From Magnetospirillum sp. XM-1 (lineage in GTDB: Bacteria; Pseudomonadota; Alphaproteobacteria; Rhodospirillales; Magnetospirillaceae), in NCBI RefSeq assembly GCF_001511835.1, contig NZ_LN997848.1, positions 2,170,001 to 2,234,000 on the forward strand: 64,000 bases of DNA, in the 5' to 3' direction. The notes below the pieces were generated by a model that was given only the letters and a program-made list of their open reading frames with translations, was not told where the DNA came from and ran no database searches. This document shows, piece by piece, positions 56,480 to 64,000 of the stretch. The translations under genes and the position numbers were made by a program. Each line of letters starts with the position of its first letter. The stretch's first letter is position 1.

Positions 56480-56556
56480 GGCGGGGTAGCTCAGCTGGTT
56501 AGAGCACGGGAATCATAATCCTGGGGTCGGGGGTTCAAGTCCCTCTCCCGCTACCA
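56480..56556 (+). tRNA. tRNA-Met (CAT anticodon)
   Basis: 77 nt with encoded CCA. Acceptor GGCGGGG/TCCCGCT with G-U pairs at both ends, D-arm GCTC/GAGC, anticodon stem CGGGA/TCCTG around loop ATCATAA (anticodon CAT), variable loop GGGTC, T-arm GGGGG TTCAAGT CCCTC. Elongator methionine is more likely than lysidine-tRNA-Ile2, but sequence alone does not fully exclude the latter. Its 3' end is a probable attachment site of the element to the right. Confidence 0.95.
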
Positions 56557-56564
56557 TCGAAAAG

Positions 56565-56595
56565 GCCCGTAACTTCAATGAGTTACGGGCTTTTT
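56565..56595 (+). terminator. tRNA terminator
   Basis: GCCCGTAACT (56565-56574) pairs with AGTTACGGGC (56581-56590), followed by TTTTT. Textbook intrinsic terminator 9 nt after the CCA. Confidence 0.95.
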
Positions 56596-56684
56596 CGTTG
56601 CCCAGATTCCGTTCTGGGGGCCTCCCAGAAAAATCGAGCAAATCCCAGCATTTCCGCCACTTTCTATCGGTTCCGATATTTTCC

Positions 56685-56706
56685 TGGGTACATGGTGGGT
56701 ACATGG
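56685..56706. repeat. Two perfect tandem 11-mers near the tRNA
   Basis: TGGGTACATGG occurs twice head to tail. An inverted repeat ATCGG-TT-CCGAT (56666-56677) lies just to the left. Short direct repeats of this kind near a tRNA attachment core look like arm-type binding sites of a tyrosine integrase; the role is inferred. Confidence 0.5.
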
Positions 56707-56846
56707 AAACGGCCCGTTGTTCACGGGTGGTTCCGCGAATTGGCGTGTCCGCACCGTGCGGACAGTGGCAATTCGGAGGTTTGCGCCGCATTCGGCTTTC
56801 CCGCTCCGTGGCGTGCGGAGCGGCCCCGCCGACTGGGAAGAACTGA

Positions 56847-57392
56847 TTAGCCGGCTGCCGCACGGGCGATAGCTTCCCGGATCGCCTCCCTGATACGGGC
56901 GCCCGCCCACTCCCTGTTTCTTTCAAACGCCGGCGCAAGGAACGGTTGGGCGGGTCTGGCCGGCACGTCTCGCATACCGATGCTCGTCGTCTTGCTATTC
57001 GCCCGTTTCCTTATGTAGCCGATGACTTCCAGGGTTTCGGATTTCCGCTCGCCAGGAACATCGGTCTTCACTCGTCGGCTGATGACCATCGGGGCCGCCT
57101 GGTAGCCCTTCGTCCCAAATTCAACGAATTTCGCGCGCCATCCGGCCTCGTTCCATTCGGTTCGGGAAAGCCTCTTTGAGAACCCGACCCGCGTTGAGAG
57201 GCCGTCGGGGCTTGTCGAAAGGCTTATTGCGCGGGCAAGCTCCCCGCTATCCTTCGGGACCGCGGATACGGCGTCGGTATAAACCGCTTCGGCGGCCTCC
57301 TTGATCGCCACTTTCACATGTTCCGTAAGATCGTCAGGAAGGCGACGCAGCAAACGGCGCAGCTTGCCGACGTTGGTGTACCCTTTGGCCAT
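56847..57392 (-). CDS. HK97 gp10-like head-tail connection protein
   Basis: A 181-residue protein (MAKGYTNVGKLRRLLRRLPD ... VPKDSGELARAISL) with the N-terminal helix and DSGxLxxS block of the HK97 gp10 family, which joins head and tail. The C-terminal segment is Arg/Ala-rich. It is the last structural gene before the tRNA; in normal phages tail genes would follow. Start ATG 57392, 9 nt after the portal stop. Confidence 0.85.
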   Translation of the reverse strand: MAKGYTNVGKLRRLLRRLPDDLTEHVKVAIKEAAEAVYTDAVSAVPKDSGELARAISLSTSPDGLSTRVGFSKRLSRTEWNEAGWRAKFVEFGTKGYQAAPMVISRRVKTDVPGERKSETLEVIGYIRKRANSKTTSIGMRDVPARPAQPFLAPAFERNREWAGARIREAIREAIARAAAG

Positions 57393-57401
57393 CTTCGCCC
57401 C

Positions 57402-58601
57402 CTATGCAATGGTCTGGGCGCCCGCGTCCCAGGTGTCGCCACCGGCGCGGACGTTGTAGCCTTCGGCCTGGCGAACCTCGTTCGGGGTCAGCACCTTGTT
57501 GCGGAGGGCCACGTCATAGCCCTGCCACCGCTGGGCCGGATCACCGCGGAGGAAGCCGGAAAGGTCCATCTCGATCATGTGGCTTTCGCGCCCGGCCGAG
57601 CTCAACACCGATCGGGCAAACTCGGCCTCGAATTTCCGTATCCAGGGGGTAAGCGTGAATTGCGCGAACCACCGGCCGGCCGTTTCCGAATTGGTGAAGC
57701 TCGAATGGTCCCAGATGCCGACAATGGGGGGCGGAACCTGATAGAGCCGGGCAAGCTCCTCGGTTGAGAACCGCCGGGACGAAAGCAACTCGGCATCCTC
57801 GGGGCTCACGCTGATCGGCTGCCACTCGGCGCCGTTCTCGAGGATCATGGCCTTACCGGCCAGGTGCGGCCCGCGGAACAGCCGGTCGAGCGATTCGCGG
57901 ATGTTGTCCATCTGCTCTTGCACCAGCCGCCCAGGGAAGCGGAAAGCGCCGCTCGGGCTCAATCCATTCCGGTACAAGCTGCCGGAAAAGTCTTGAACGG
58001 CAAGGGCACCGCCGACGGTTTCGGCGGCTCGAGAGATGCGCGAGCGGCCCAGCTTGCCGTCGTCGCTGCGGTCCTTGAGGTGCAGCACCTCGGACGACAG
58101 CAGCCGGCGGACGCGGCCAGTGGCACCATACATCCCAGCCACTTCGACCACGTCATAGGCCAGGCGGCCGGTGGGCAGCAGCACGACGGACACCCAATCC
58201 CAGGGGATCGGCCGAAGCTCGACCACGGCGCCGGATGCGTCGACGATCACCTCGGACAGCGCGTTTCCGCGCAGCAAGGCCGAGGCCATCGTCCATTCGA
58301 CCCAATCGGCCCAGGACTGGCAGGGATTTACCCCGTTGGCGATAAGACGGGCCAGGGGGTGACCCGTGTCCTCTTGGCGCCCGCCGTCGATCTTGAGATA
58401 GACGTATGCTGGCAGGCTGGCGATAGCGGTGCTGATCGCCGAAACGCAGGCGAGAACCGTTGATAGGTTCTCGGCCGCCCGACCGTCAACACGTTGCCCG
58501 GACGCGCTGACGTGGCCAGAGAAATGGGAATAGGCATCGCCGGAATACCGGGACCGGGTTTCTTGCGATCCGCGGAGGCGGGAGATAAGGCGCCCGATCA
58601 T
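57402..58601 (-). CDS. Phage portal protein (HK97 family)
   Basis: A 399-residue portal: LSTVLACVSAISTAIASLPAYVY, the WTMASALLRGNAL helix, VLHLKDRSDDGKLGRSRI and the wing/crown region LARLYQVPPPIVGI. It forms the 12-fold ring at the packaging vertex. Start ATG 58601 gives a 4-nt ATGA overlap with the protease gene and GGAG at 8 nt; the ATG at 58607 is too close to that site. Length is normal for the family. Confidence 0.93.
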   Translation of the reverse strand: MIGRLISRLRGSQETRSRYSGDAYSHFSGHVSASGQRVDGRAAENLSTVLACVSAISTAIASLPAYVYLKIDGGRQEDTGHPLARLIANGVNPCQSWADWVEWTMASALLRGNALSEVIVDASGAVVELRPIPWDWVSVVLLPTGRLAYDVVEVAGMYGATGRVRRLLSSEVLHLKDRSDDGKLGRSRISRAAETVGGALAVQDFSGSLYRNGLSPSGAFRFPGRLVQEQMDNIRESLDRLFRGPHLAGKAMILENGAEWQPISVSPEDAELLSSRRFSTEELARLYQVPPPIVGIWDHSSFTNSETAGRWFAQFTLTPWIRKFEAEFARSVLSSAGRESHMIEMDLSGFLRGDPAQRWQGYDVALRNKVLTPNEVRQAEGYNVRAGGDTWDAGAQTIA

Positions 58602-59125
58602 CGGCATGTCTCCAAAAAGCGGATTGCATGGGCCAGTCTGGGAGTGGCGAAACGGGCTTGCACGCTGGTGCCGCTGTACGCCGGCCAGGCCGACACAACG
58701 CTGATTTCGTGCAATAGCACGCTGCGCAGTTCGCGCCGGTTCCCTTGCCACCGCTCCCCGTCCTGGGGGACCGTGAAGCCAAAGGACATCCCGCCCAGGT
58801 CGCCCCGCTCGGCCAGGGCCAGCACATCGCGGCCGGCCTGGGTGTCGGGGAGGTCCAGAGAGAACGACAGGCCCCGCGGGTCTTCCGACAAGCGGAGCGT
58901 GCCGGAACGAGTGCGGGCCAACACCTTGCTCGGGTCGTGATCGACCAGCGCCAGCACGTCGCGGGTGGGGGAGAGCGAGCCATGAAAGGCCCCCGGCTGG
59001 ATCACCTCCGTAAAGTCGGCGATCCTGGCCTCGGTCCCAAACGTGGCTGCGTAACCTTCCAGGCGGCGGCCGGCGGCGCGTATCTCCATGACGAGCGCGC
59101 GCCGCTCAATGTTGGCCCCACTCAT
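58598..59125 (-). CDS. HK97-type prohead protease
   Basis: A 175-residue U35 protease that trims the capsid scaffold domain. Candidate catalytic residues are His in LALVDHDPSKV, Ser in GGMSFGFTV and Glu in LLHEISVVSAWPAY. ATG 59125 shares one base with the capsid stop (TGATG); the TTG three bases upstream is rejected. Gene order capsid-protease is inverted relative to HK97. Confidence 0.92.
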   Translation of the reverse strand: MSGANIERRALVMEIRAAGRRLEGYAATFGTEARIADFTEVIQPGAFHGSLSPTRDVLALVDHDPSKVLARTRSGTLRLSEDPRGLSFSLDLPDTQAGRDVLALAERGDLGGMSFGFTVPQDGERWQGNRRELRSVLLHEISVVSAWPAYSGTSVQARFATPRLAHAIRFLETCR

Positions 59126-60417
59126 CAAGTCACCAGATCGGTAATCGCGGCGAACGATTCCGGGTGCCGAACGGCCAGGTCCATGGTCAGCATACCGCGG
59201 ACCTGAACATTGCCCTTGGCATAGGCCGTCGCCTCGTAGGGATTGACGAGCAGATCGAAGGCCGACCAGTAGCCGATCAGCAGATCGGAGAAGTTGCCGA
59301 AAATCATGCTCGACAGATTGGTGCCGGTTCCCTTGGTGCCGTCGCTGGGCACCAGATTGGTGATGGCCGCATTGTAGCCGGCCAGGCTGCCCGGCTCGGT
59401 CCAGATGAAGCCGCCGGCCGCGTCACCGGACACCTTCAAAGCCTTGCGGCCAGACTTCCGAACCTTGGTGTTGGTCAGGAAGGCGGTGCCCTCGACGTTG
59501 TCGGTTTCCAATTCGGCGATCAGGTCGATAACCTTGTCCCAGGTGATCGCGCCGCCGTTGGTGCCCATGGCCACGCTGCCGATGCCGCTGGTGCCCAGGA
59601 TGCCGGTGGGCTCATTGCTGCCGCCGCCCTTGATCGCCACGCGGTCAATGGCCTCGGCCAGCACCGCGGCGAAGTCGGCGCGAATAAGCTGCTCGATGTC
59701 GGGGGACGACTGCATCAGCATGTTGCGGCTGAACTCGGTCAAGCAACCGGCATGCTTCGGCGACATCGTCACCTTGGTGTGCTCGAGGTCGCTGGCCGAC
59801 AGGGCGCCATTCTCGGCAATCCAAGCCGAGGTGGTGGACTGCTTGAGCTTGGGGATTTCGACATTGCCGACCAGGCCATTGAGCACGCGAGCGCCAAGGC
59901 CGCGCATCACCAGCTTGGCGCGCAACAGGTCGATATACTGGCCGCCCAGATGGTCGGTGGCGATCAGATTGGAACCGGGGCCGCCAACCGGGGCGGTGGT
60001 GGTGGTGACGCGCTGTTCGAACACGTTCAGCGGCACCATCATGCCCTTGGCGGTCACGCCGCTGCGGCGCTGCATTTCGGCAGACATCTCACGTTCGCGG
60101 CCGCAATCGACCTTGCCGGCCAGGTCGGGAACCTGGGAGGCGATGGCGCGGATCAGCGAGAAGTTGCGGAGCTCGTTGTCGAGGTGGCTGTCGCCGGTGC
60201 CGGTGATGGTCTGGCCAAGCATACGGCGCTCGGCTTCGTCCAGCATTTCGGCGCGTTCGATTTCCTTCTCGATACGGGCCAGGTTGCCGCGCATCTCGTC
60301 GAACTGGTGGGCCTGTTCGTCAGACAGTTCACCGCCCTGGCCGGCCGGGGTATCGGCGATCTGGCGCATGGCGGTGATGGTCTTGGCGCGGGTTTCCATG
60401 AGGTCTTTGAGCTTCAT
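59125..60417 (-). CDS. HK97-fold major capsid protein
   Basis: A 430-residue capsid precursor. Residues 1-75 are a coiled-coil scaffold (delta) domain (LSDEQAHQFDEMRGNLARIEKEIERAEML), cut by the neighbouring protease. The rest is the HK97 fold (VEIPKLKQSTTSAWIAENGA, MSPKHAGCLTEFSRNML, DIEQLIRADFAAVLAEAIDR, GSNEPTGIL) with C-terminal P-domain strands. Clearly intact and full length. Confidence 0.95.
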   Translation of the reverse strand: MKLKDLMETRAKTITAMRQIADTPAGQGGELSDEQAHQFDEMRGNLARIEKEIERAEMLDEAERRMLGQTITGTGDSHLDNELRNFSLIRAIASQVPDLAGKVDCGREREMSAEMQRRSGVTAKGMMVPLNVFEQRVTTTTAPVGGPGSNLIATDHLGGQYIDLLRAKLVMRGLGARVLNGLVGNVEIPKLKQSTTSAWIAENGALSASDLEHTKVTMSPKHAGCLTEFSRNMLMQSSPDIEQLIRADFAAVLAEAIDRVAIKGGGSNEPTGILGTSGIGSVAMGTNGGAITWDKVIDLIAELETDNVEGTAFLTNTKVRKSGRKALKVSGDAAGGFIWTEPGSLAGYNAAITNLVPSDGTKGTGTNLSSMIFGNFSDLLIGYWSAFDLLVNPYEATAYAKGNVQVRGMLTMDLAVRHPESFAAITDLVT

Positions 60418-60539
60418 TTGAATTGAACTCCATCGATGGGACGTGCCGCCTCTCGGCGGGAAAATCCGTGGCTAGCGCATTGATCCTTCCGCGCGCCACA
60501 AGTCAAAGTCAAGTGACGGCAGGGTCGGATTACGGACTA

Positions 60540-62180
60540 TTACGAGACGTTCAGTACCATTCCCGTGAAGGCATATGTCGGCGGTGGCGGCTCTCGAGTG
60601 AACAAGCCAATTGCCATTGCCAGCGATACAAGGCCATCGACGCGACCGAGCGATTTCCGCTTGGTGATCTTCCGGTTTCCGGCCGGATCGATCTCGACTT
60701 TCGCATTCGCGACATTCCACCGAAGGATGGCATTATTGCCGTGGCGCAATTTGCACTTGAGAACCCACTCCTCGAGGGCGTCGATCGCCGGGGCCATGGA
60801 TATGAACCCCTGGCCGAAATCGACGAGGGGCAAGTCGATGCCCTCGTCGTCGAGCAGCTTCATCAGGTCTTTGATTCGGGCTCGGTCATACGCAATGCCG
60901 GCGATGTCAAATTCGGCCGCGGCTTCGGCCATCGCCATGGCTATGGATCGCTTATCCACCGCACGGCCCGGCGGAGCGTCAAGGACGCCATTGTCGCGCC
61001 ATACGTCGTAGGGTGCCCTATCCCGCATGACACGGTCGGCCAGGCCGTCTCCGGGGAGCCAATAGCGGGCAATGACGGCGCCGGTGTCGGGGAAGAACAG
61101 GACAAACGCCGACATGTCGCCGGCCGACGACATATCCAGCCCGCCCCAGCACCGTTTGCCGTAAAGCTCCGACCGATCGACCTGGCCGGCGCAAGCGTCC
61201 CACAGATCGCGGGGAAAGATCGGCTCGGCTGTCGCATCGACTTCTTGGTTGAGGAAGTAGCAGCGGAACCCCGGCACCTGGGCCGGGAGGCGCAATGCCA
61301 TCTTGGCGGCCTTGCGGAGGTCAGCAAGCGACCGGAAGTCCCCCAAGGCGGGGTTGGCCAGTGCCCACAGGCTTTCGTCGGTCAGCAGGCGCCGCACGTC
61401 GTCTATGGCCTCGGGAACCTCGTAGATGAAGGCGGCGAAGTGGGGATCGACGATGGTGCCGGCGTTCACCTCGCGGCCATACTGGACAAGCTCGGACATG
61501 ACGCTGTTGGTGTCGGCGCTCTTGGTCGAGATGACCACCATCAAGGGTTCGTCGTGGGCGCCCTGGCCGGTGTCGAGCGCCTGGTACAGTTCGCGGCCAC
61601 CGGCCTGCCACTGCGCGAGCTCGTCGGCGATGACGAAATTGCCAGACAGGCCATGGGCGCGGTGGGCGTCGGACGACAGCGCCTCGTAAATGCTGCCGGT
61701 TTCCATGTCCTCGATGCTCTTGTTGTGCCGGATGACGTTGCACCTGGCGATCAATTCGGGGTCGGCCTCGATGAAGGCGACAAGCTCACGAAAGATCAGG
61801 CCGGCCTGGTGGCGGTCAGATGCGGCGCTGAACACCTGGCCACGCTGCACCGATTCGGGGCCGACCAGATGGGCGAGGGCCAGGGCCGCGGCCAGTGCAG
61901 ACTTGCCCTGTTTCCGGGCCATGGTCAGCAGCGCCGTGCGCACGGGGCGGTGCCCGTCGGCATCGGTGGCATAAATCTTGGCGATGATCTCCCGTTGCCA
62001 CGGGCGAAGCAGGAAATTGCGGCCGGCGTGCATCCCCGAACTGATCTTGAGCCCTTCGATGAAGGCGATCATGCGATCGGCACGGCTCAAGCCCGGCTTC
62101 TTCCATGCCGGCCGCTTTTTCCGGGTGGCGGGGGCGGTTGTCTTCGGCTTCGGCCGGGCGCCAGGTCCACGCAAGCCCAT
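60540..62180 (-). CDS. Phage terminase large subunit
   Basis: A 546-residue packaging ATPase-nuclease. Walker A MARKQGKSALAAALAL (about residue 88-103), Walker B NFVIADELAQW, nuclease aspartates in GGLDMSSAGDMSAF and near RVDGLVSLAMAIG. It starts MGLRGPGARPKPK, as usual in HK97-group TerL. A GGGGGAGG site precedes ATG 62180. The 122-nt gap to the capsid gene holds TTGACT-like words, perhaps a promoter for the capsid module, and no gene. Confidence 0.95.
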   Translation of the reverse strand: MGLRGPGARPKPKTTAPATRKKRPAWKKPGLSRADRMIAFIEGLKISSGMHAGRNFLLRPWQREIIAKIYATDADGHRPVRTALLTMARKQGKSALAAALALAHLVGPESVQRGQVFSAASDRHQAGLIFRELVAFIEADPELIARCNVIRHNKSIEDMETGSIYEALSSDAHRAHGLSGNFVIADELAQWQAGGRELYQALDTGQGAHDEPLMVVISTKSADTNSVMSELVQYGREVNAGTIVDPHFAAFIYEVPEAIDDVRRLLTDESLWALANPALGDFRSLADLRKAAKMALRLPAQVPGFRCYFLNQEVDATAEPIFPRDLWDACAGQVDRSELYGKRCWGGLDMSSAGDMSAFVLFFPDTGAVIARYWLPGDGLADRVMRDRAPYDVWRDNGVLDAPPGRAVDKRSIAMAMAEAAAEFDIAGIAYDRARIKDLMKLLDDEGIDLPLVDFGQGFISMAPAIDALEEWVLKCKLRHGNNAILRWNVANAKVEIDPAGNRKITKRKSLGRVDGLVSLAMAIGLFTREPPPPTYAFTGMVLNVS

Positions 62181-62181
62181 G

Positions 62182-62274
62182 TCAAGCCTCCCCCATGAGT
62201 GAAACTAACTGAATGCTCGACCCCCCGCCCGGTCCCTTGGCCCGACTGTTAGAGATTTTTCCGTGCATCTTCAT
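62182..62274 (-). CDS. Candidate 30-residue ORF coupling HNH and terminase genes
   Basis: Read from the minus strand: MKMHGKISNSRAKGPGGGSS ... LMGEA then TGA. Its ATG overlaps the HNH stop by 4 nt (ATGA), and its stop is 1 nt before the TerL ATG. It fills exactly the space where a small terminase gene would be, but is far too short to be one. It may be a microprotein or only a translational bridge. Confidence 0.35.
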   Translation of the reverse strand: MKMHGKISNSRAKGPGGGSSIQLVSLMGEA

Positions 62275-62567
62275 GGCCGCTTCCACCAGTGGTTGGGGTC
62301 GATTGGGTTGCCGTCGGCATCGCATCCATGCACGACGAACTGGCCACCGCGGCGCCGTCGGCCGTGCTGGTCTTCCTTCACCTGGTTGTCGTGCTCACGG
62401 CAGAGCGAGCGCAGATCGGCAAGCGAGAGCGAGTGCGGCACCAGATGATCGACCACGACAGCGCCCCTGTTGCATCCAGGCACCGTGCATCGGTGGTTGT
62501 CGATCGCCAACCGCTGCGCCCGCAGTTCCCGCCATGCCTTCGTCTTGTAGAAGGGATCATTCGGCAT
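62271..62567 (-). CDS. HNH endonuclease
   Basis: A 98-residue phage HNH protein with zinc cysteines in RCTVPGCNRG, the HNH core VVVDHLVPHS and LRSLCREHDNQVKE. HNH proteins beside TerL (as HK97 gp74) help cut concatemers at cos sites. Start ATG 62567 overlaps the previous gene by 11 nt. Its presence suggests cos-type packaging. Confidence 0.9.
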   Translation of the reverse strand: MPNDPFYKTKAWRELRAQRLAIDNHRCTVPGCNRGAVVVDHLVPHSLSLADLRSLCREHDNQVKEDQHGRRRRGGQFVVHGCDADGNPIDPNHWWKRP

Positions 62568-63447
62568 TCGCGGGGCGCTCCGACTTGATGTACGGGAACA
62601 CCTTGAGCATCAGTTCGGCAGCGATGACGGGCGTGAGTTTCGAATCGGCCCTGTGCTCGTTATACATGAGACGGACCCATTCGGCAGTATGGGCGCAGCC
62701 GGCAGCAAGGCGCCGCTCTACGGCTGGCCAGAACCAGCTCCGTAATTTGATAAACCTATCGTGCGCCGCTACAGCCCTGCCGGTAAAATACGCGGCGCCT
62801 TCAAACTCCCACACATCTGGGGTCTTGTCGCCGAGATGCTTTCTGGCATCCGCAAGTATGGCCTCCACATGCGCTTCATGTGCCTGCCGCTCATTTTCAC
62901 ATTTCGTCGAGATAGGAAGCGCGCGCCTCGCCGCCCAGCCAATTACCCGGCGATGCTCGGCCTCGGCCTCGGCTCGCTTCCGCAATTCGGCTATGGTCGG
63001 AAGTCGGACTTCGCTATCGATAACGTCGTCGTAAATCTTCCTGAGAATGTCGGCAGAATATCGAGCCAACACCCTGCCAGCCTCGGCCACGAATACGCCA
63101 CGAACCACCTTGGGCGTGGGCAAAACATCGACGAGCTTGCCTACTCGGTTTTCAGCGTATGCACGCCGGCCCTCATATTCGGCCTCGCAATCGGTGATTT
63201 CTTCCCACCGACGAACCCAATCTATTATGGGCTGTAGGTCTTCGGGATAGACATCCTCGGCATTGACCTTCCAATCGTGCTTGGTCAGCTTGCGTTGTAT
63301 AAGGTCTATGAGCTCCGGGAAATCGTTGAACTCATTCTTTGGCGGCTCCAACATGGTCGGCATCTTCGTCGTAACCGTGGTGGCCTTCTCAGGCTTCGGC
63401 TTGGTGTTGGCAGTCATGGCGTGGACTCCATCGTGGTCAGTCGTCAT
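62557..63447 (-). CDS. Element protein of unknown function
   Basis: A 296-residue, mostly helical, charged protein with no recognised domain: Lys/Thr-rich N-terminus, then DLIQRKLTKHDWKV, LARYSADILRKIYDDVIDSE and RFIKLRSWFWPAVERRLAAG. No signal peptide or membrane helix. ATG 63447 (GGAG 9 nt upstream) or 63417 are both possible starts; the TTG at 63465 is less likely. It overlaps both neighbours (11 nt each). It occupies the region where phages carry a small terminase, but is long for that role. Composition is less GC-rich than the chromosome. Confidence 0.75.
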   Translation of the reverse strand: MTTDHDGVHAMTANTKPKPEKATTVTTKMPTMLEPPKNEFNDFPELIDLIQRKLTKHDWKVNAEDVYPEDLQPIIDWVRRWEEITDCEAEYEGRRAYAENRVGKLVDVLPTPKVVRGVFVAEAGRVLARYSADILRKIYDDVIDSEVRLPTIAELRKRAEAEAEHRRVIGWAARRALPISTKCENERQAHEAHVEAILADARKHLGDKTPDVWEFEGAAYFTGRAVAAHDRFIKLRSWFWPAVERRLAAGCAHTAEWVRLMYNEHRADSKLTPVIAAELMLKVFPYIKSERPANAE

Positions 63448-64000
63448 AGCCGGGCACTCCGTCAAACATGTCGGCGGGCCTGGCGGGCTTGGCTGTCTTG
63501 TTTTGGCTTTTAGGGGAACGCCGGACGGGGGGAGGGTCTTTAGACCCGACCCCTACGGCCGAAGGCGTTCCCACTAAGTTGGGTTCCTCTCCGCTGGAGC
63601 TACGAGGAACCCTCTTAGTGGTTCTTGTATCACCCGGGGGTGACGCAATTTCGATTTGCGTATCACCCGGGGGTAACGCTTGTGTATCACCCGGGGGTGA
63701 CGCAATTTCGATTTGCGTATCACCCGGGGGTAACGCTCCGATTCGATACCAGGCCGCCGAACAGCCCTTGCTCTCTTTTGTCCGGACGAAATAGCCGCGG
63801 TCTACCAGCCGATTAATGGACTCGGCGACAATACGGGGCGCCAGATCGGCTTTGGCCGCCAGGAAGCGGACGGCGCCCTCGATGTTTCCGGGCTTGCCCC
63901 TGTTCTCCCACCAATTGTCCAGCATGGCGAATGCGACAGCGAGGTCGGATCGACGCAAGCTCGGATCACGCGACAGCCAGGCGAAGAACAGCCAGCGATA
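63437..64000 (-). CDS. HTH replication/regulatory-type protein, cut by window edge
   Basis: The frame is open to base 64000 (residues YRWLFFAWLSRDPSLRRSDL...), so the N-terminus is missing. The visible 187 residues hold a winged-helix-like part (IEGAVRFLAAKADLAPRIVA, ESINRLVDRGYFVRTKESKG) and a Pro/Ser/Lys-rich tail. The tail contains four PPGDT units from a 57-nt tandem duplication. Such proteins in phages and satellites are often replication initiators or helix-turn-helix regulators; the assignment is open. Confidence 0.7.
   Translation of the reverse strand, partial: YRWLFFAWLSRDPSLRRSDLAVAFAMLDNWWENRGKPGNIEGAVRFLAAKADLAPRIVAESINRLVDRGYFVRTKESKGCSAAWYRIGALPPGDTQIEIASPPGDTQALPPGDTQIEIASPPGDTRTTKRVPRSSSGEEPNLVGTPSAVGVGSKDPPPVRRSPKSQNKTAKPARPADMFDGVPGYDD
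63626..63737. repeat. Tandem duplication with four CACCC/GGGTG units (iteron-like)
   Basis: The segments 63626-63680 and 63683-63737 are identical over 55 nt with a 57-nt period. Each holds two near-palindromes GTATCACCCGGGGGTRACGC, giving copies starting at 63627, 63660, 63684 and 63717. They are in frame in the HTH gene (19-residue repeat). Confidence 0.85.

Follow-up and report, generated by a model that had tools for sequence, protein, structure and literature searches.

Does a phage head and packaging gene set that ends at a tRNA gene belong to a satellite making its own capsids, or to something more ordinary? The question is raised by the right end of the window, the whole stretch of 64,000 nucleotides from Magnetospirillum sp. 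XM-1 that was analysed, where a sequence-only reading had proposed a capsid-forming, cf-PICI-like phage satellite at tRNA-Met. The present analysis supports that proposal through an integrase, an att duplication, an empty site in a related genome, a size of 10.3 kb, the absence of recognised tail genes and a conserved head module. Judged from its sequence, the XM-1 element is very probably an intact, mobile, capsid-forming phage satellite.

Boundaries and gene content of the XM-1 element

The earlier limits of the element, drawn to position 64,000, proved too short, as its right end lies near 66,900 in window coordinates, beyond a tyrosine integrase (Table 1). Both this integrase and the other attachment site had been predicted past 64,000; the latter was found as a 52-nt att duplication, and the tRNA-Met site of a genus-mate (G011, locus L185) is empty, with one repeat copy. 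Repeat to repeat, the element spans 10,342 bp in its alphaproteobacterial host, a size counted in favour of the satellite reading. In the assembly the element, which has a tyrosine recombinase of its own, is flanked by duplicated att sites and inserted in the 3' end of tRNA-Met.

Table 1. Features of the XM-1 element and its integration site, on the window scale
Feature	Position	Strand	Evidence or remark
tRNA-Met (CAT), integration target	56480..56556	+	ARAGORN
att repeat, window copy (3' half of tRNA-Met)	56509..56560	+	52-nt direct repeat, 98% identical
HK97-gp10 / Neck1-type connector, 181 aa	56847..57392	-	PF04883 1.5e-6, phrog_5 1.9e-19, TIGR01725 2.1e-10
Portal protein, 401 aa	57402..58607	-	PF04860 1.2e-89; start by coding score (449 aa from upstream GTG)
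S78 prohead protease, 175 aa	58598..59125	-	PF04586 1.1e-39
HK97-fold major capsid protein, 430 aa	59125..60417	-	PF05065 7.5e-38
Large terminase TerL, 546 aa	60540..62180	-	PF20441 1.1e-40, PF03354 1e-21
HNH endonuclease, 98 aa	62271..62567	-	phrog_2323 1e-14; 90 nt upstream of TerL
Orphan protein, 296 aa	62557..63447	-	overlaps HNH and initiator genes
O-like replication initiator, 211 aa, weakly assigned	63437..64072	-	start 72 bp past window end
Four iterons GCGTYACCCCCGGGTGATAC within initiator gene	63627..63736	-	start-to-start 33/24/33
HTH protein, 82 aa	64086-64334	-	phrog_18541 2.7e-26, TIGR01764 0.021
Protein without assigned function, 287 aa	64346-65209	-	
Protein without assigned function, 90 aa	65346-65618	+	
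Tyrosine integrase	65615-66793	+	PF00589 6e-13, phrog_1 1.8e-47
att repeat, partner copy	66851-66902		2236851-2236902 on contig; past window end

The head and packaging set had been described as complete, and the genes for HNH, TerL, HK97-type capsid, S78 protease, portal and gp10-like protein are indeed all open, in that order on the minus strand, with the starts of the initiator, portal and protease genes chosen by coding score. No tail or lysis gene was recognised in the 290 bp between the end of the gp10-like gene and tRNA-Met, as had been claimed, and profile searches recognised none among the called genes of the whole att-bounded element. The gp10/Neck1 protein is the one head-tail connector recognised; the element showed no gp6- or gp7-type connector. 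The search for a TerS returned nothing within the element apart from a weak match of the HNH protein to phrog_4581 (terminase small subunit, 3.6e-9). TerL is the sole PF20441 match in the host genome, and the solved chain nearest to the capsid protein by sequence is 8gta (3e-32).

No primase was recognised in the element, and its replication gene is the O-like initiator, weakly matched to phrog_270 (E 0.0008 for a 173-aa form and 0.0014 for a 273-aa form), whose internal iterons are likely the replication origin. The nearest candidate for an AlpA-type regulator is the 82-aa HTH protein, with a weak excisionase match (E 0.021). A word-based search of 5.77 billion proteins with the orphan protein gave itself alone, and its single-sequence structure model was discarded (mean pLDDT 38); from its position beside the O-like initiator, we guess that it might be a helicase loader. 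Relative to L102, whose portal and protease are 75% and 80% identical to those of the XM-1 element, the share of codons that differ is 47–55% at position 3 and 11–37% at positions 1 and 2, in all five head and packaging genes compared. The open frames are read as being under constraint.

Because the element has its own head and packaging genes and no recognised tail genes, it would need borrowed phage tails. When a tailed helper infects the cell or is induced, the element would excise and replicate, replication being started by the O-like protein and the iterons. HNH and TerL would then package one 10.3-kb genome into a small head of the element's own capsid protein, the portal and Neck1 protein would attach a helper tail, and the helper would supply lysis.

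Relatives of near-constant size

The expectation that the same head module would be found in other genomes was borne out in dozens of cases, at near-constant size. Relatives were found with alignment A1, a TerL-only genome scan having given no confirmed relative. Att-like repeats bound 49 of 80 fetched genome loci with a related TerL, and these lie at tRNA genes in 44 cases and in Alphaproteobacteria in 43; the tRNA targets are of 12 isotypes, and a few sites are of another kind. Together with the XM-1 element, the resulting 50 genomic elements measure 10,475 ± 552 bp. Flanking repeats could be tested at 97 of the 160 fetched loci. At 37 of them the longest repeat exceeded the longest from each of 10 shuffles by 4 nt or more; these loci span 8.7–12.1 kb with no size filter applied and include 29 at a tRNA. 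When shorter repeats were accepted at tRNAs, together with a size filter, 53 of the 97 were bounded. Among the best 120 TerL homologues, 30 are on contigs of 9.5–10.5 kb, a density of 30 per kb against 4–8 per kb in the smaller size bins. On two contigs of about 10 kb, the sequence at one end recurs identically at the other, over 118 nt in L024 and 121 nt in L108, as it does in circles; no integrase was recognised on L108.

Gene order had been offered as a character separating such satellites from phages. Capsid precedes portal in 53 of 53 att-bounded relatives, but the same order is seen in a prophage of E. coli EDL933 and in 13 IMG/VR contigs that lack a separate protease gene, with lengths of 29–60 kb in some; the character separates the two only in part.

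A gp6-type connector cluster is present in 32 of the 54 bounded elements, the XM-1 element not among them, and a tail-like gene lies inside at least two (L109, L141). One Phage_tail_2 match was seen among the non-core proteins of bounded elements, not placed in a given element. The spread is patchy, with 8 of 387 class genomes matching at E 1e-130, the own genome included. A Roseomonas plasmid match proved to be an ordinary phage with tail genes, and a distant E. coli search with L098 gave no match. From these loci, the XM-1 element seems to belong to a family of elements of about 10 kb that is mostly alphaproteobacterial and has been little described.

Alternative explanations and possible helpers

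It is possible, if doubtful, that the element is a strict cf-PICI with an unrecognised TerS, its host range being the one new thing. The capsid-protease-portal order and the HNH gene beside the terminase are as in the cf-PICI locus of E. coli EDL933, which we take from its gene content to be the EcCIEDL933 of papers, and the weak terminase-small match of the HNH protein points the same way. Against this, an HNH gene lies just upstream of TerL in 52 of 54 bounded elements and within 150 nt of it in 45 of the 52, which is the place of TerS in EDL933. No widely shared protein cluster across the 54 elements offers a TerS candidate, among 150 non-core proteins neither the top 25 of 143 PHROGs by frequency nor the top 25 of 53 Pfam families include a small-terminase family, and TerL is far from that of EDL933.

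Much less probable is a remnant of a normal prophage that has lost its tail and lysis modules, a reading to which the HK97-type head genes and the partial head modules of two genus-mates (L015, L016) would lend themselves. Decay is made unlikely by the att-bounded relatives, with similar content and near-constant size at so many different sites, and by the 10-kb contigs with redundant ends; the att repeats just outside the element, the empty site and the open, constrained frames also speak against it. The chance that this is a complete tiny phage, independent of tails and entering cells in another way, is slimmer still. It would account for the full head set and for contigs with redundant ends, one without a recognised integrase, but the portal and Neck1-type protein point to tail joining, no lysis or entry gene was recognised, and one TerL relative (L137) has a 1,214-aa ORF, read as a tape measure. 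A host-domesticated, GTA-like particle maker is barely credible: the capsid weakly matches that of the R. capsulatus GTA (1e-6) and the head genes lack recognised tail genes, but the integrase, att sites and iterons, the patchy distribution, the empty site in a genus-mate and a host genome without GTA_TIM all argue otherwise.

For the XM-1 element as a satellite, no helper was identified in its own genome, where the sole tape measure found by a PF10145 search belongs to a Mu-like prophage that is not claimed as helper. A GTA as its helper is likewise not supported, given the lack of GTA_TIM. Three relatives are inserted within the GTA terminase gene (terL) of Hyphomicrobiales, which suggests that some relatives may live with, and perhaps use, GTAs; soil or water type strains of Chelativorans and Bosea are among the hosts of such GTA-embedded relatives. 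A search for further such insertions with the L154 integrase matched 8 of 397 genomes, with the GTA TerL motif at the query's own locus only among the eight loci. A more far-reaching proposal, conceivable but on balance improbable, is a separate, Alphaproteobacteria-centred satellite lineage that manages without a classical small terminase subunit to package a genome kept close to 10 kb. Some of its members would be partnered with GTAs, being inserted in the GTA terminase gene, coupling excision to GTA expression and placing their own heads on GTA tails.

If the satellite reading is right, head-making satellites would form a coherent, widespread lineage in Alphaproteobacteria, and tail theft probably had more than one origin, since the TerLs are far from that of the E. 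coli cf-PICI. Two questions become directly testable: given the near-constant size of 10.4 kb, how small the HK97-fold heads of these elements are, and, given the missing TerS, how a terminase picks DNA when it lacks its usual small partner. With three copies lying in GTA terminase genes, one may also ask whether a satellite can live as a parasite of gene transfer agents.

Comparison with known systems

HK97-group phages share the capsid, protease and portal families of the XM-1 element, but possess tail genes and, in HK97, the order TerS-TerL-portal-protease-capsid; the best 30 of 1,627 isolate phage records are 36.8–37.9% identical in TerL. Gene transfer agents are resident clusters with tail genes and neither integrase nor att sites, the reverse of what was found here. 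The Streptomyces satellites MulchRoom and MiniFlayer likewise encode their own heads and packaging genes; by description, they differ in their virulent helper phages and genomes with terminal repeats, and the available part of the source reports no homology to cf-PICIs (PMC10690885). Helper-embedded PICIs reside in late genes of lambdoid prophages, an insertion resembling that of the three relatives in GTA terL, although their hosts are lambdoid and the accessible portion of the text mentions neither gene transfer agents nor Alphaproteobacteria (PMC10111431).

The EDL933 cf-PICI, the sole cf-PICI reference compared, likewise has an integrase, HTH and replication genes, capsid-protease-portal, HNH and TerL, with no tail genes annotated. 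The XM-1 element has in common with cf-PICIs an integrase with attachment sites, its own capsid, protease and portal, TerL with HNH, and no recognised tail or lysis genes. Unlike it, the EDL933 locus comprises about 14.4 kb of genes, with a P27-family TerS, a DUF927 protein and head closure and connector genes, and places packaging genes after head genes. TerL lies on a branch of 3.4, the portal is also far removed, and the capsids are 26% identical over 99 aa. With no TerS found, distant proteins, another module order, a smaller size, a weak AlpA match and one connector, strict cf-PICI membership is not shown for the XM-1 element; as a description of how the element would work, 'cf-PICI-like' is right.

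Boundaries and gene content of the element

The sequence-only reading had proposed a capsid-forming phage satellite in an alphaproteobacterium, a proposal supported here by the head and packaging genes, flanking repeats, an integrase, an empty site and a family of relatives of about 10.5 kb. In the window, which spans G000:C1:2170001-2234000, the 3' half of the tRNA-Met (56509–56560) forms a 52-nt direct repeat, 98% identical, with a copy 10,342 bp on. Both this second copy and a tyrosine integrase, which that reading had proposed to look for past position 64000, lie there, giving an element of 10,342 bp. The tail genes it had expected to be missing were likewise not seen: between the two repeat copies, the stretch beyond 64000 included, none of the recognised families belongs to tails, tape measures, fibres or lysis. 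The gene resuming the flank beyond the right copy reads like Hsp70. The 296-aa orphan protein returned itself alone among 5.77 billion proteins searched; the rest of the element is conserved.

Features of the window element, read from its right end, and of three related satellites
Feature	Position	Strand	Host and site
Tyrosine integrase	right end of window element	plus	
90-aa gene	after integrase	plus	
Unknown 287-aa protein	after 90-aa gene	minus	
82-aa HTH	after 287-aa protein	minus	
211-aa weakly O-like initiator	between HTH and orphan	minus	
296-aa orphan protein	window 62557-63447, between initiator and HNH	minus	
HNH, TerL, capsid, protease, portal, gp10/Neck1 protein	in this order from the right	minus	
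L154 satellite	L154:8465-18649, 10,184 bp		Pararhizobium mangrovi, inside GTA-type terL
L159 satellite	L159:8524-18442, 9,918 bp		Chelativorans intermedius, inside GTA-type terL
L166 satellite	L166:8691-19349, 10,658 bp		Bosea vaviloviae, inside GTA-type terL

Among 17 genomes of the genus, the host's included, 15 matched the right flank at E 1e-3, some through short pieces only. Both flanks were compared with six of the 20 right-flank loci returned. In one, from a genus-mate genome (L185), the left flank (93%) and right flank (91%) join on a single tRNA-Met core, an empty site; in the other five, whose margins extend 1.5 kb, the right-hand gene alone could be seen. Given this one clean empty site, the insertion is fixed at 10,342 bp.

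Relatives, their sizes and free forms

With the window TerL as query, 2,452 of 7,997 candidate proteins scored at E 1e-20; the contigs of the best 120 listed peak at 9.5–10.5 kb (30/120), with 39/120 at 9.2–11.7 kb. Among isolate phages, all 1,627 TerL-matching records fell below 60% identity, the best 30 of them at 36.8–37.9%. A sample of 387 genomes from the class contained eight, the host's among them, with a TerL at E 1e-130, four above 600 bits. An alignment of 42 TerLs confirmed relatives in 586 IMG/VR and 231 genome stretches, and the best 80 of each were retained (160 loci). Their gene maps often read HNH-TerL-(other genes)-capsid-protease-portal-integrase-tRNA; the window arrangement, with the integrase at the opposite end and on the opposite strand, recurs in L102, L162 and L172.

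Boundaries were tested on the 97 of 160 loci with TerL, capsid, portal and enough flank. In 37 loci the longest repeat in the flanks exceeded that of every one of 10 shuffles by 4 nt or more; these loci span 8,688–12,134 bp without a size filter, and 29 of them touch a tRNA. A second set adds repeats of at least 13 nt at tRNAs under a size filter of 8.5–12.3 kb, giving 53 relatives (49 genomic, 4 IMG/VR), or 54 bounded elements with that of the window. The 49 genomic relatives and the window element average 10,475 bp (SD 552), a tightness partly made by the filter, of which the 37-locus set is independent. Most genomic relatives lie at tRNA genes (44/49, 12 isotypes) and are labelled Alphaproteobacteria (43/49); other hosts of relatives include Humidesulfovibrio, Salinisphaera and a Burkholderiales genome. 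TerL, capsid and portal are present in all 54 bounded elements by selection, and, by cluster, protease in 53, HNH in 46, integrase in 46 and a gp6-type connector in 32. The capsid-to-portal direction holds in 53/53 relatives, one without a recognised protease between.

Identical contig ends were found in L024 (IMG/VR; 118 nt, 10,030 bp) and L108 (121 nt, 10,080 bp), the latter a 10.2-kb contig (L108:1-10201) in the isolate assembly of Paracraurococcus ruber that carries the head module. Judged by their sequence, such ends look as those of circular molecules assembled once would, or would fit terminally redundant linear DNA. No integrase was recognised in L108, perhaps a plasmid-like form. The ends of contig L023 share 19 nt.

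Terminase, replication genes and trees

Of the 54 bounded elements, 52 carry HNH as the gene just before TerL, with a gap of at most 150 nt in 45 of these (wider in L023, L079, L157, L160, L165, L167 and L170). In the E. coli cf-PICI reference, the EDL933 element, a TerS (P27) stands between HNH and TerL. No widely shared TerS candidate emerged, since, connector aside, no further cluster is common to more than 15 of the 54. The TerS role may be filled by the orphan or by the HNH protein itself.

Non-core genes were scanned through 150 of the 163 cluster representatives that reach 75 aa (out of 238), and the families they matched most commonly were replication initiators, primases and HTH regulators. 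Tail-like matches in the bounded elements numbered at least three (one Phage_tail_2, one in L109 and one in L141), and rare tail genes could escape these scans, which cover the 25 commonest families out of 143 PHROGs and the 25 commonest out of 53 in Pfam. A 20-nt iteron occurs in four copies within the window element's initiator gene, a likely replication origin; in lambda, too, the origin lies within gene O. A perfect tandem duplication of 55 nt, spaced at 57 nt (L003:7627-7738), doubles the iteron pair inside the window element's initiator gene. Arrays of at least three copies were found in 21/54 bounded elements, against at most 2 in 54 shuffles that ignore codon structure; several three-copy arrays sit in capsid, protease or portal genes and therefore mean little. 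Arrays of four or five copies, in seven elements (window, L102, L103, L104, L105, L109, L145), sit in or beside genes upstream of HNH, where three-copy arrays also occur in L110, L116 and L129.

The TerL tree of 161 rows is unrooted and comes from a quick IQ-TREE search with SH-aLRT as its sole support measure. One group of 61 rows, at support 100, takes in HK97 and most IMG/VR rows and excludes 53/54 bounded elements, the exception, L079, having the EDL933 gene order. This order, capsid-protease-portal-HNH-TerL, with TerL in the HK97 group, is shared by three IMG/VR loci (L073, L079, L098), perhaps another origin of capsid-forming satellites. The EDL933 TerL sits on a branch of 3.4, its position unsure yet not close to the window family. 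The satellite side is mixed, including a 56-kb contig (L035) and three loci (L125, L137, L143) that run portal-protease-capsid; a 1,214-aa ORF after TerL in L137 is read as a tape measure. Gene exchange of satellites with tailed phages is possible in these three. The portal rows nearest that of the window are L102, L104 and L103 (FastTree). Among solved capsids, the window capsid matched 8gta at 3e-32 and the R. capsulatus GTA at 1e-6; 9gyi, a full-length match to the EDL933 capsid, reached 0.004 over 92 residues.

Insertions in GTA genes, helpers and known satellites

In three Hyphomicrobiales (L154, L159, L166), family satellites flanked by copies of a shared 8-nt core, ATGTGCGA, split the 3' end of a terL, after which a second portal and protease follow. 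The core alone is too short for significance; the evidence for insertion is the interrupted TerL protein. We take this terL to be that of a gene transfer agent, supported by the GTA marker family GTA_TIM in all three genomes, about 10 kb downstream on L154's own contig and 10–12 kb downstream in L159 and L166, provided that contigs correspond. GTA_TIM was not found in a fourth genome queried, that of L161, nor in the host genome. These insertions resemble helper-embedded PICIs, as far as the available part of PMC10111431 describes them.

The host genome holds one PF20441 TerL and one Mu-like prophage with contractile-tail genes (G000:C1 about 4050000-4079000; L204, L205). According to part of PMC11389934, an E. 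coli cf-PICI was mobilised by non-native phages and by 0/17 of its strain's prophages; the absence of a recognised helper from the host genome therefore says little.

In the portions available, the literature lists the defining cf-PICI genes and terms these elements widely distributed (PMC10690885), divides their capsids into three clades (PMC11389934), notes a similarity of cf-PICI and GTA capsids (PMC12846349) and names, without describing it, a putative integrase-bearing prophage from uncultured Alphaproteobacteria (PMC10187409). Neither capsid-forming satellites in Alphaproteobacteria nor any in GTA genes were found in these portions, including those of PMC12324425, PMC13345588 and PMC10448857, and the tables of the main cf-PICI surveys may already include some of the present elements. 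The window element is real, looks intact and most likely belongs to a conserved lineage of capsid-forming satellites; it should work as a cf-PICI does. It differs from cf-PICIs in that no TerS was found, in its distant proteins, in its different module order and in its smaller, near-fixed size.
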